From a virus: a stretch of 61,453 nucleotides of DNA. The stretch spans positions 1 through 61,453 of the IMG/VR virus record IMGVR_UViG_3300031216_000013. One strand, 5' to 3'. The notes under the pieces are model-generated. The model did no database searches. It was not told the DNA's origin and worked only from the letters and a program-made list of their open reading frames with translations. Shown in pieces: positions 2,537 to 15,992 of this stretch (position 1 is its first letter; each line of letters opens with the position of its first letter). Both the position numbers and the translations under genes were made by a program.

Positions 2537-2609
2537 TAGGGGCTAGTTTAATCGGTTGGAATACTAGATTGTGAATCTGGAGACGGGAGTTTGATTCTCC
2601 CACCCCTGA
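2537..2609 (+). tRNA. tRNA-His (anticodon GTG)
   Basis: A 73-base cloverleaf can be folded by hand. The acceptor pairs 2537-2543 with 2602-2608 (one C-A mismatch at the inner end). There is a D arm with GG in the loop. The anticodon stem CTAGA/TCTGG holds the loop TTGTGAA with GTG at 2571-2573. A short variable loop follows, then the T arm GGGAG/CTCCC with loop TTTGATT. CCA is not encoded. It lies between two coding genes and is followed within 20 bases by the next start. Phage tRNAs can match phage codon use or replace host tRNAs cut by anticodon nucleases. Confidence 0.78.
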
Positions 2610-2627
2610 CCGTTACTGGGAGGTAAA

Positions 2628-12101: not shown

Positions 12102-12445
12102 AACTACTACTAGCCCTAATATTATCAATTAACCTATCTTTTGCTCAGACAATCAAACCCATTAACCAAGGCGACACAGCTCCCTTTACTGGTTACATCA
12201 TTGATAAGAAGTTTGAACAAGCTAGAAGAACAGAGAGAGAACTATTAGACCTTGAGAAGTCTAAAACGGTAGTTCTAAGGGAGTTGGGTAAGGTTCATGT
12301 AGGTAGGACTGAATTTTACAAGGAAGAGGCTAAGAGGGCTAAAAGAGAGGTTCTTAAGGGACAGTTTAAGACTGTTCTATATTTTGTTGGTGGTATCGTT
12401 TTAGGGGGTGCTGCTGTGTATCTAGGATCAAAGGTGGCTAAATGA
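12098..12445 (+). CDS. Exported coiled-coil protein with C-terminal membrane span
   Basis: 115 residues. Residues 1-17 are a clean signal peptide with an SFAQ cleavage site. The middle is a charged coiled coil (residues 35-80). Residues about 90-112 form a hydrophobic span, YFVGGIVLGGAAVYLGS. It overlaps the lipoprotein gene next to it, as spanin pairs often do. A normal Rz has an uncleaved N-terminal anchor instead, so a spanin role is only a guess. Confidence 0.6.
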   Translation: MKLLLALILSINLSFAQTIKPINQGDTAPFTGYIIDKKFEQARRTERELLDLEKSKTVVLRELGKVHVGRTEFYKEEAKRAKREVLKGQFKTVLYFVGGIVLGGAAVYLGSKVAK

Positions 12446-12699
12446 TTAATGTTTTGAGAATTTTATTGGTAATGGTATTTTTAGTAAGTTGCAGCGAAGA
12501 TCCAATTAGTGAAACAGGTACTGATAATCCTAATATTAAAATAGATCTTCTATTTAATCATAATGGATGTAGTGTTTATAGGTTTAGAGATGGTGGATAT
12601 TCTCGCTATTTTTCTGACTGTAGCGGTTCTATAAGTTCTAGAGTCTACTGTGGAAAAACCTGCACCAGACCAAACACAACAATTAATATGGGACAATAA
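12442..12699 (+). CDS. Small Cys-rich lipoprotein
   Basis: 85 residues. The signal ends in lipobox LVSC, predicting an N-terminal lipid on Cys 17 and an outer- or inner-membrane location. The mature part contains CSVYRFRDGGYSRYFSDC, a YRF-x-D-x-G ... YF-x-x-C arrangement common in small phage-encoded secreted proteins, and several more Cys that suggest disulphides in the periplasm. It is coupled to the exported protein upstream; together they could act in lysis or in the envelope. Confidence 0.65.
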   Translation: MINVLRILLVMVFLVSCSEDPISETGTDNPNIKIDLLFNHNGCSVYRFRDGGYSRYFSDCSGSISSRVYCGKTCTRPNTTINMGQ

Positions 12700-12702
12700 G
12701 TC

Positions 12703-13728
12703 ATGAAATTCACAAGATATTCATCAATTGAAAACGCATACAGAACCAAATTTATTCAAAAAATGCAAATGTATATGAGTAATGAAGAGTTTGTTGTTCA
12801 AGAAAAAATACATGGAGCTAACTTCTCTTTCTATTGTGATGGTGAAACTGTTCTTTGTGGAAAACGATCTTCTATTTTACAAGGAGAGGAAATAGGTCAA
12901 TTCTTCAATGCCGATAGTTTACTTAGTCAACATAAAAGTAAAATACTGGAGATATTTAACCACGTTAGATTGATAAAATTCTTTGATAAAGAAAGCACAG
13001 ACGTAACCTCAATATCTATACATGGTGAACTTTACGGAGGAACATATCCCCACGATAATGTAGATAAAAATAACTCAGCCAAGAAAGTTCAGAAAGGTGT
13101 ATTTTATTCACCAGATAATGAATTTGTTGCTTTTGATATGAAAGTTAACGAAGAGTATGTGAATATCGATCACATGAACGAATGGCTTGATAGGTCAGGA
13201 TTAACTAGATTAGAGATCTTAAAAAGAGGAAAATTAAATGAATGTTTAGATTACCCTAACGACTTTAATAGTCACTTACATAAATGTTTTCCTGAACTTG
13301 ATAACAACACTTGTGAAGGAGTGGTTATTAAGACTGTCAATCCTGTTAGATTCCCTAGTGGAGATAGACCTATTGTTAAGAATAAAAACGCCAAATGGAG
13401 TGAAAAGAAGAAAGGAGAGGGTAAAAGTGTACAAAAAGAACTACCTGAACATGTTAAGAAGCATGTATTGATAGGTCAAGAATACATTACGGAGAATAGA
13501 CTGAGGAACGTACTATCTTACATTGGTCCAATTGTTGAAGTCAAGAAAGCCTTTGGTCAGATCTTGGGAGCTTTTAATAAAGATGTTATAAAAGACCTCA
13601 TGGTAGAAAACGAAGAGTTCTTGGACCTAGAAAAACAAGATAGGAAAATAGTGACTAGTATGTTAAAGGGGTTGTCAGCGGAGATGATTAGACCCAACTT
13701 CGCCAATATACTCGATGGGGAGTTTTAA
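12703..13728 (+). CDS. RNA ligase, T4 Rnl2 family
   Basis: 341 residues. The N-terminus FTRYSSIENAYRTKFI and motif I EKIHGANF, with the nucleophile Lys35, resemble T4 Rnl2 closely. Motif III HGELYGG, motif IV CEGVVIKT and motif V VKNKNAKW are all present, followed by a helical C-terminal domain. Rnl2 enzymes use ATP to seal 3'-OH/5'-PO4 nicks in duplex RNA. It is the first gene of an RNA-repair cassette; its stop overlaps the HD-Pnk start. Confidence 0.88.
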   Translation: MKFTRYSSIENAYRTKFIQKMQMYMSNEEFVVQEKIHGANFSFYCDGETVLCGKRSSILQGEEIGQFFNADSLLSQHKSKILEIFNHVRLIKFFDKESTDVTSISIHGELYGGTYPHDNVDKNNSAKKVQKGVFYSPDNEFVAFDMKVNEEYVNIDHMNEWLDRSGLTRLEILKRGKLNECLDYPNDFNSHLHKCFPELDNNTCEGVVIKTVNPVRFPSGDRPIVKNKNAKWSEKKKGEGKSVQKELPEHVKKHVLIGQEYITENRLRNVLSYIGPIVEVKKAFGQILGAFNKDVIKDLMVENEEFLDLEKQDRKIVTSMLKGLSAEMIRPNFANILDGEF

Positions 13729-14735
13729 TGTCTACAATGACAGAGAAAATTATATGGTTTCAAAAATACCATCCAGAATTAGTAAAAGAAATGCAACAAT
13801 GTACTCATCATGGTGAAGACCTCAATCCTTATCACTTAGAAGGGGATGTTTGGACTCACACTATGATGGTCTGTAAGCAATCAGAGAATCAATCGGAATT
13901 AGTACAATGGGCAACTTTACTACATGACATTGGTAAACCTAAGGTTCATTCTATTAATAAAAAAGGACATTCGTGCTTTTATAATCATGATGCAGTTAGT
14001 GCTTTTATGGCTTTAGACGTTCTAGAAAATGCTAACTTTTGGAAGTTTAGCAACTTAATTGACCGACATAAGTTAACAATTTTTAAAGCAATATCAATAC
14101 ATACCCAAGTGTTTAAACAAACACCTGACAAACTTGGGGAAATGTTTGCTAATGATGTTCTTACTGCTGAAACTTTCTATGAGCTTGGGGTAGCTGATCA
14201 TTCAGGTAGATTTACTAGTACAGAGGGTTCAGTTAACGAACCGGTATATACTTCTAGAGGATATCCTTCCGATAAAACAAAAAGACTCACTCTGTTATGC
14301 GGATTACCTGCTTCTGGCAAATCAAGTCATGTTAGTATCTCTGATTACGATTTTGTAGTATCTAGAGACGGATTAATAGAAAGTTCTTCACTAAATGGAA
14401 CTTACAATGAAAAATGGAAGAACGCTGACCAGAAAGAAATAGATAGGTTACTGCAACTGCAATATGTCTGGGCAAAACAATACAATAATGTTGTTATAGA
14501 TATGACACATATGAACAAGAAGAGTAGAAGAAAATCTCTTTCTCACTTTGGAGATGAATACTATAAATGTTGTATTGTGTATATTTCACCTCTTTCAGTA
14601 TTAGAGTTGCGTAATATGAATAGAAATGGTAAGGCAGTACCTGATGAGGTTTATGAAAGGATGTTGAAGTCTTTCTATCCTCCACTAATGGACGAGTTTG
14701 ACGAGGTAATCTGGAAATATGACAACACTTTTTAA
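13728..14735 (+). CDS. HD-Pnk: HD phosphoesterase plus 5'-OH polynucleotide kinase
   Basis: 335 residues with two domains. Residues about 20-160 are an HD domain (His44, then LLHDIGKP with His66-Asp67, then HD at 87-88). Residues 186-335 are a kinase with P-loop GLPASGKS (192-199). This order matches HD-Pnk of Runella slithyformis, where the HD part removes a 2',3' or 3' phosphate and the kinase adds a 5' phosphate. It would make broken RNA ends ready for the two ligases on either side. It overlaps both neighbours. Confidence 0.85.
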   Translation: MSTMTEKIIWFQKYHPELVKEMQQCTHHGEDLNPYHLEGDVWTHTMMVCKQSENQSELVQWATLLHDIGKPKVHSINKKGHSCFYNHDAVSAFMALDVLENANFWKFSNLIDRHKLTIFKAISIHTQVFKQTPDKLGEMFANDVLTAETFYELGVADHSGRFTSTEGSVNEPVYTSRGYPSDKTKRLTLLCGLPASGKSSHVSISDYDFVVSRDGLIESSSLNGTYNEKWKNADQKEIDRLLQLQYVWAKQYNNVVIDMTHMNKKSRRKSLSHFGDEYYKCCIVYISPLSVLELRNMNRNGKAVPDEVYERMLKSFYPPLMDEFDEVIWKYDNTF

Positions 14736-15798
14736 AGAACTAGATAAAAGAGTAGAAGATGGACATCTAAGAAAGGTAATATCCCCATGCAGAAAACTCG
14801 TACTTTTTAACTATACTGATGCTTGCACTTACGATAAAGCATGGGACGAGCATACTTTAAACGCAAGAGGTACTGTTTACGAAATCGAAACAGGTAATAT
14901 TATTGCTCAAGCTTTTCCAAAATTCTTCAACTACGGAGAGCTAGACTTAGATTTACAAAAAGACTTATTACATAGAAAGGATTTCGATGTTTATGAAAAA
15001 GCTGATGGCAGTTTAGGTATTATATATCATTTTGATGGTGAGTGGAGGGTCAACACTAGAGGGAGTTTTTCTTCAGACCAATCTGTATTTGCATCTAGTA
15101 TGTTAGGCAATTACGATCTATCGGGATTCCCTAAAGACATAACGCTCCTTGTTGAGATTATATATCCTGAAAATAGAATAATAGTAGACTATGGGGACGA
15201 TAAAAAGTTAATACTTTTAGGAGCTTTTCAAAATGTCATTGATTTAAATTCTGAATTATTCGATATAGGATCTCGAATCAAAATGGAAGTCGCTCAAAAG
15301 AAGTCTTTCAGCTCTATTGACGAACTAATCAAAGAAAGAGAAGTTATTCCTGCAGGAGAAGAAGGATTTGTTGTTAGGTTTTCGGATGGAGAAAGAGTTA
15401 AATTTAAAGGAATGGAATATCTAAAAGTTGCAAGAATACTCCAAGGTTGTTCTCCCCTAACATTTTGGGAGTCTATGGTCGAAGGTAATGTTGATAGGAC
15501 AATACTAGAACAGATACCAGAAGAGTTTAGGGATGAATTTGATAGGATTGCTCAGGTTATTGAACATAAATACAGCGTCCAAAAACAACAATACACTGCT
15601 CTTTACTTTGATATAACAAGAAAACTAGCATTACCTCTAGTTCACGATCAAGTTAACGAAGAACATAGAAAGAAATTAGGTATATACTTAAAGGAAAATA
15701 ACATTAAAGAGTCTGGTGTTATTTTTACATTACTACTTGGACAGTCTATAGATAAGCAAGTGATGAGAGCAATAAGACCTACAGCGAACGTTCTATGA
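14719..15798 (+). CDS. RNA ligase, T4 Rnl1 family
   Basis: 359 residues. Motif I YEKADGSLG carries the nucleophile Lys94, and the LNARGTVYE region, motif IV EEGFVVRF and motif V VKFKGMEYL follow. The arrangement fits T4 RNA ligase 1 (gp63), which rejoins tRNA anticodon-loop breaks in single-stranded RNA. Together with HD-Pnk it could restore tRNAs cut by a host anticodon nuclease. The start overlaps HD-Pnk by 17 bases, so the proteins are made together. Confidence 0.87.
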   Translation: MTTLFKELDKRVEDGHLRKVISPCRKLVLFNYTDACTYDKAWDEHTLNARGTVYEIETGNIIAQAFPKFFNYGELDLDLQKDLLHRKDFDVYEKADGSLGIIYHFDGEWRVNTRGSFSSDQSVFASSMLGNYDLSGFPKDITLLVEIIYPENRIIVDYGDDKKLILLGAFQNVIDLNSELFDIGSRIKMEVAQKKSFSSIDELIKEREVIPAGEEGFVVRFSDGERVKFKGMEYLKVARILQGCSPLTFWESMVEGNVDRTILEQIPEEFRDEFDRIAQVIEHKYSVQKQQYTALYFDITRKLALPLVHDQVNEEHRKKLGIYLKENNIKESGVIFTLLLGQSIDKQVMRAIRPTANVL

Positions 15799-15992
15799 CA
15801 ATTAAACTTTTATTTCCCACCATTTATGTAGAAAAAAAGTCTGAAGCATTGTTAGGTCAAGACCTAATAGAGACTAACATATCTTTCCCTACACAACTAA
15901 ATTTGCAAACTTGGTCCAATTCCGTTATACTAATTATTAGTGTGTTGGGGTTTGGAGTAAGGATATATTGGAGATACAATGAACAAACATGA
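15795..15992 (+). CDS. Small C-terminally anchored membrane protein
   Basis: 65 residues; the C-terminal SVILIISVLGFGVRIYW (about residues 43-59) is one membrane span. It overlaps Rnl1 and the next gene. No function is recognised. Confidence 0.55.
   Translation: MTIKLLFPTIYVEKKSEALLGQDLIETNISFPTQLNLQTWSNSVILIISVLGFGVRIYWRYNEQT

Follow-up and report, generated by a model that had tools for sequence, protein, structure and literature searches.

The window, a 61,453-base virus record analyzed at its full length, carries a cassette of three complete ORFs on the + strand (12703-15798). In order, these encode an Rnl2-type RNA ligase, a fusion of an HD phosphoesterase with a polynucleotide kinase (HD-Pnk), and an Rnl1-type RNA ligase. 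We read the cassette as a modular phage RNA-repair operon (probability roughly 0.7), in which HD-Pnk would heal broken ends and Rnl1 and Rnl2 would seal them, allowing escape from host defences that cut tRNA or other RNA. The cassette is real, well formed, and of a familiar type, as all three enzyme types were previously known in phages. Its novelty is the compact placement of an HD-Pnk between two different ligases. The features considered are the following.

2537..2611, + strand: tRNA-His(GUG) with U at -1, U1:G72, and A73; 10 kb from the cassette
12703..13728, + strand: Rnl2-type RNA ligase, 341 aa (Pfam, TIGR02307, T4 Rnl2 structure, residues)
13728..14735, + strand: HD-Pnk, 335 aa, with an N-terminal HD phosphoesterase and a C-terminal 5'-OH polynucleotide kinase (Pfam, phrog, residues, model)
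14719..15798, + strand: Rnl1-type RNA ligase, 359 aa (Pfam, phrog_562, T4 Rnl1 structure, residues)

The three proteins and their genomic setting

The Rnl2-type ligase matched Pfam RNA_ligase (E = 1.7e-22) and T4_Rnl2_C (E = 8e-15, above cut-off), the latter revealing the Rnl2-specific C-terminal domain. TIGR02307 matched over its full length (5.1e-53), with a score of 180.7 bits against an equivalog cut-off of 197.15. Judged by these profiles, this is a divergent Rnl2-type protein. Its closest solved structure by sequence was T4 Rnl2 (2hvq, 8.3e-27), and alignment to that enzyme showed retention of K35, R55, E109, E205, K226, and K228, with motifs I, III, IV, and V present. Lys35, previously proposed as the nucleophile, aligned with K35 of T4 Rnl2.

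The Rnl1-type ligase matched Pfam RNA_lig_T4_1 (4e-16, above cut-off) and phrog_562 (1.3e-57), with T4 Rnl1 (2c5u, 4.4e-7) as its closest solved structure by sequence. As TIGR02308, the T4 RnlA family, scored 60.2 bits against an equivalog cut-off of 242.25, the protein is classed by profile as Rnl1-type and not as a T4 RnlA equivalog. Alignment to T4 Rnl1 showed R50, K68, K94, E146, E215, K228, and K230 to be retained. Here K94, the other suggested nucleophile, aligned with K99 of T4 Rnl1, while K68 and K228/K230 are the equivalents of K75 and K240/K242.

HD-Pnk contained Pfam HD (5.9e-9, residues 41-118) and AAA_33 (2.4e-11, residues 187-319) domains, both above cut-off, and matched phrog_6931 over nearly its full length (3.8e-49). 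Its closest solved structures by sequence were kinase and poly(A)-polymerase domains. Across nine phage homologues, H36, H44, H66-D67, H87, H125, and D157 of the HD half were invariant, and the kinase half kept its P-loop GLPASGKS (K198/S199), D214, and R299. R295 aligned with R122 of T4 Pnkp, such that the lid comprises R295/R299. The position of T4 R38 is occupied by I217 and that of T4 D85 by M259, with D258 adjacent. The kinase pocket of the window protein thus differs from that of T4, although R38 was also absent from the homologues of phage RM378 and the Campylobacter phages. An AlphaFold2 model had a mean pLDDT of 85.9, and Foldseek matched its kinase half to Pnkp structures from mammals, C. 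thermocellum, and T4. No solved HD structure was recognizable among the fold matches listed for the HD half, and its assignment is based on Pfam and the conserved residues. Both domains of an HD-Pnk are thus present, with predicted 2',3'-phosphoesterase and 5'-kinase activities.

Families, catalytic residues, and kinase fold therefore agree with the preliminary description of the three overlapping genes as Rnl2-type ligase, HD-phosphoesterase/kinase fusion, and Rnl1-type ligase. Catalytic motifs are intact in all three proteins, as judged by alignment to the T4 enzymes and, for HD-Pnk, also to the nine phage homologues.

A near-identical contig of 80,105 bases (G001, loci L003 and L011) represents the same phage. 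The placement of its tRNA and polymerase genes leads us to infer that the genome is circular and about 79.9 kb long; the window would then lack about 18 kb. The cassette is located in a dense operon that also holds nucleotide-metabolism genes. The Rnl2 and HD-Pnk genes share a single base between stop and start (TAATG, 1-nt overlap), HD-Pnk and Rnl1 overlap by 17 nt, and the ORF downstream of Rnl1 overlaps it by 4 nt. The overlaps on which a coupling of the three genes had been proposed are thus real, but we rejected them as a sign of special coupling, because 27 of 39 neighbouring pairs (40 + strand genes taken) overlap or lie at most 4 nt apart. Dense packing is typical of the whole strand, so overlap tells little about the cassette.

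Outside the window, the same phage carries PRPP-synthetase-like, NAMPT, and DarG-like macro-domain genes in a row (12291-15931 of locus L181, G001:51000-69900). The NAMPT gene includes a weak intein-domain match. Together, the trio looks like a set for NAD+ restoration and anti-ADP-ribosylation.

Relatives and probable remodelling of the cassette

Homologues of HD-Pnk were found at 25 loci in IMG/VR and in 74 records of a named phage collection, predominantly from Campylobacter phages; 54 of the 74 matched over 80% or more of the query. Of 17 HD-Pnk phage records searched over their whole length with Pfam RNA-ligase models, 16 held one or more RNA ligases scoring above cut-off, often adjacent, and G009 had none. 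A scan of bacterial genome contigs for HD-Pnk gave mostly short HD-domain matches, which we interpret as CCA-adding-type enzymes; longer matches occurred in three short contigs. The arrangements among the phages were as follows.

Window: Rnl2, HD-Pnk, Rnl1, overlapping
L014/G005 (IMGVR 3300027861_000031): Rnl2, PolyA_pol, HD-Pnk, RlaP, Rnl1, tRNA-His, over about 9 kb
G003 and G007: HD-Pnk, RlaP, Rnl1; in G007, Rnl2 about 12 kb off
G004: HD-Pnk, an unrelated ORF, Rnl1
G006: HD-Pnk adjoining Rnl2; Rnl1 about 9 kb off
L023/G010: HD-Pnk, tRNA-His, DRB0094-type ligase
G012: ligase, then HD-Pnk
LR756500: HNH-Rnl2-like, then HD-Pnk

Two ligases with an HD-Pnk recur within single genomes (G001, G005, G006, and G007), and G003, G005, and G007 each place HD-Pnk, RlaP, and Rnl1 side by side. 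Only the window phage, among the relatives checked, has the tight three-gene version. G005 comes close, as it shares with the window the order of Rnl2, HD-Pnk, and Rnl1 on one strand (7.3 kb span) as well as a tRNA-His. Unlike those of the window, its genes are spaced apart and interleaved with PolyA_pol, RlaP, and HNH genes. Its PolyA_pol-type and RlaP nucleotidyltransferases lie among Rnl2, HD-Pnk, and Rnl1 (L014 7124-10529), forming a richer RNA-repair island. Neither nucleotidyltransferase was found in the 80-kb contig of the window phage.

Phylogenies placed the window HD-Pnk in one group with those of G003, G004, G005, G006, G007, and G010 (support 99/99). The Rnl1 tree united the window, G003, G004, G005, and G007 with L045 and L059 in one clade (support 97/98). 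Branch order within both groups was mostly unresolved. The Rnl1 neighbours in L045 and L059 are HAD-type Pnk proteins. Because a single Rnl1 clade adjoins either HD- or HAD-type Pnk, HD-Pnk appears to take the place of T4 Pnkp, and this shared clade is the best comparative evidence that it does the same job. Across the phages compared, the phosphatase module varies between HD, HAD, and calcineurin-like types beside a constant Rnl1, which supports functional equivalence.

Two further loci show other fusions. L047 (5176-9071) has a two-ligase cassette without HD, in which genes for a kinase, for Rnl2, and for a fusion of Rnl1 with a calcineurin-like phosphoesterase follow one another. L049 (6696-9107) combines kinase, phosphoesterase, and Rnl1 in one fusion of 803 aa.

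The portal, capsid, and terminase of the window match those of G003, G004, and G010. As these structural genes unite the four phages, remodelling of the cassette seems to have taken place inside a single phage group. Compared with named phages (Vibrio, Salinibacter, cyanobacterial, and Silvanigrella phages), the terminase, polymerase, portal, and capsid are distant, with about 24-28% identity. The best named match for the structural genes was a Silvanigrella-associated record.

The tRNA-His gene

The tRNA-His(GTG) gene announced at position 2537 is genuine (2537-2611), and is the sole tRNA in both the window and the 80-kb contig G001. Its proposed use as a pointer to PrrC does not hold. PrrC cleaves tRNA-Lys, and T4 Pnkp and Rnl1 mend the PrrC-cut tRNA-Lys (PMC2610378). 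The window gene therefore encodes the wrong tRNA, is 10 kb from the cassette, and lacks the histidine identity pair G-1:C73. Nor was any tRNA detected in the sister phages G003, G004, and G007, all of which carry HD-Pnk and Rnl1, and we rejected tRNA-His as a PrrC sign. The cassette thus does not require a tRNA.

All four tRNA-His genes from HD-Pnk phages (window, G005, G010, and G006) have A73 and no G-1 (window 2537-2611, L014 13317-13392, L023 9818-9892, and L015 1702-1776). For comparison, a pattern search gave 65 distinct viral tRNA-His genes, one of which was the window phage's own. The remaining 64 had C73 in 58 cases and A73 in 6. Fisher's test gave p = 2.6e-4 for 4/4, or 0.0018 when counted as 3/3, from samples that are non-independent, a comparison picked post hoc, and controls selected by pattern.

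Absence of G-1 with A73 is normal in one large alphaproteobacterial group and in most SAR11 strains (PMC3937112). Among the genomes we examined, the Caulobacterales genome had A73 and the Halobacteriovoraceae genome C73. Since this form is standard there, an alphaproteobacterial host would explain the odd tRNA-His, and provides a plain alternative account of it. We consider it improbable that the A73, G-1-less tRNA-His is a working partner of HD-Pnk cassettes, acting as a replacement or decoy that escapes or absorbs a host nuclease attacking tRNA-His. If true, cassette and tRNA would together form a repair-plus-substitute system directed at a single tRNA, and the pattern, if upheld, would indicate that host defence targets a specific tRNA. 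Among 120 pattern-selected tRNA-His loci, many of them short, none had a Pnk or Rnl1 match. Two of 119 pattern-selected tRNA-Asn loci did, both with tRNA arrays, and many of these loci were also short. A general link of phage tRNA-His with repair genes was not seen across these 120 His and 119 Asn loci.

Proposed role and comparison with known systems

Cleavage by host ribonucleases would produce a 5'-OH on one side of the break and a 2',3'-cyclic phosphate or 3'-phosphate on the other. HD-Pnk would strip the 3' phosphate with its HD domain and phosphorylate the 5'-OH with its kinase domain. Rnl1 may then seal single-stranded breaks (e.g. tRNA anticodon loops) and Rnl2 duplex-held nicks. Restoration of cleaved tRNAs, and perhaps other RNA, would allow the phage to evade tRNA- or RNA-cutting defences. 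RM378 HD-Pnk is reported to have 3'-phosphatase activity (PMC1997131), in favour of this scheme. In Deinococcus DRB0098, changes to HD residues gave no drop in 3'-phosphatase signal (PMC1997131), which counts against the proposed HD role.

We regard counter-defence as the likely role. A 2021 survey of jumbo phages read such gene sets as answers to tRNA cleavage, noting that these phages may hold any mix of RtcB, Rnl1, and Rnl2, and that the phosphatase step in a few is apparently performed by HD-like domains (PMC7824862). In Bacillus Thrax phages, a nucleotidyltransferase and a polynucleotide kinase occur with either one or two RNA ligases, and phage ligases have been proposed as possible answers to Cas13a tRNA cleavage. 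Our literature search found no paper on phage HD-Pnk as anti-defence. Of the suggested protection against host nucleases, protection against RNA-cutting defences stands as the most probable role, but no particular nuclease, whether PrrC or another, is indicated.

The strongest competing account, which we hold to be possible but unlikely, accepts RNA repair and assigns it to general RNA upkeep or phage RNA processing. The dense operon with its nucleotide-metabolism genes fits such a role, as does the absence of a candidate host nuclease. It is opposed by the T4 precedent (PMC2610378), by the tie to tRNA cleavage drawn in the jumbo-phage survey (PMC7824862), and by the NAD-salvage-like and DarG-like macro genes on the same phage contig. 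Less probable still is that the cassette chiefly repairs DNA ends, with HD-Pnk healing breaks in DNA that have 3'-phosphate/5'-OH ends, a DNA ligase sealing them, and the adjacent RNA ligases being incidental. DRB0098, an HD-Pnk-type protein of Deinococcus that phosphorylates 5' ends, is indeed encoded in an operon that is induced by radiation and also holds an ATP-dependent DNA-ligase-like gene (PMC1997131). However, both neighbours of the window HD-Pnk belong to RNA-ligase families, and across phages HD-Pnk is linked to Rnl1, Rnl2, and DRB0094-type ligases and to RlaP. That the Rnl1-type protein is instead a tail-fibre attachment factor, as in the second role of T4 gp63 and the phrog_562 name 'RNA ligase and tail fiber protein attachment catalyst', is very improbable, as its gene adjoins HD-Pnk, structural genes are distant and on the opposite strand, and all ligase residues checked are present.

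The RNA-repair operon that we favour can be set beside several known systems. The Runella HD-Pnk is bacterial and has an HD-then-kinase architecture beside a ligase gene, a likeness to the window drawn from description. The preliminary description was right to identify an HD-Pnk but named Runella as its sole precedent; a characterized HD-Pnk was already on record from phage RM378 (Blondal 2005, cited in PMC1997131 and PMC2610378). The Deinococcus DRB0098 operon similarly places an HD-then-kinase protein beside a ligase gene; unlike the window, it is bacterial and its partner ligase is DNA-ligase-like (PMC1997131).

Among phages, Fletchervirus F348 and related Campylobacter phages resemble the window in having an Rnl1-type ligase gene downstream of HD-Pnk and in the same orientation. 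Their HD-Pnk is about 31% identical to that of the window, the two genes are 0.9 kb apart in F348, and these phages lack an Rnl2-type ligase above cut-off. Rhodothermus phage RM378 shares the HD-then-kinase architecture and has its own Rnl1. Its HD-Pnk is 24% identical to that of the window, its Rnl1 gene is on the opposite strand at a distance of 6.5 kb, and Pfam RNA-ligase models found no Rnl2-family ligase.

T4, with pseT, rnlA, and rnlB, has in common with the window both ligase families, the healing-then-sealing logic, and the kinase fold. Its three genes had been described as lying at separate places, which is correct for the remote rnlB but not for pseT and rnlA, which are 1.4 kb apart on one strand. 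T4 Pnkp carries a HAD-type phosphatase after its kinase, whereas the window protein has an HD domain before it. With HD replacing the HAD domain of T4 Pnkp, the window cassette would be a compact natural set expected to heal and seal looped as well as nicked RNA.
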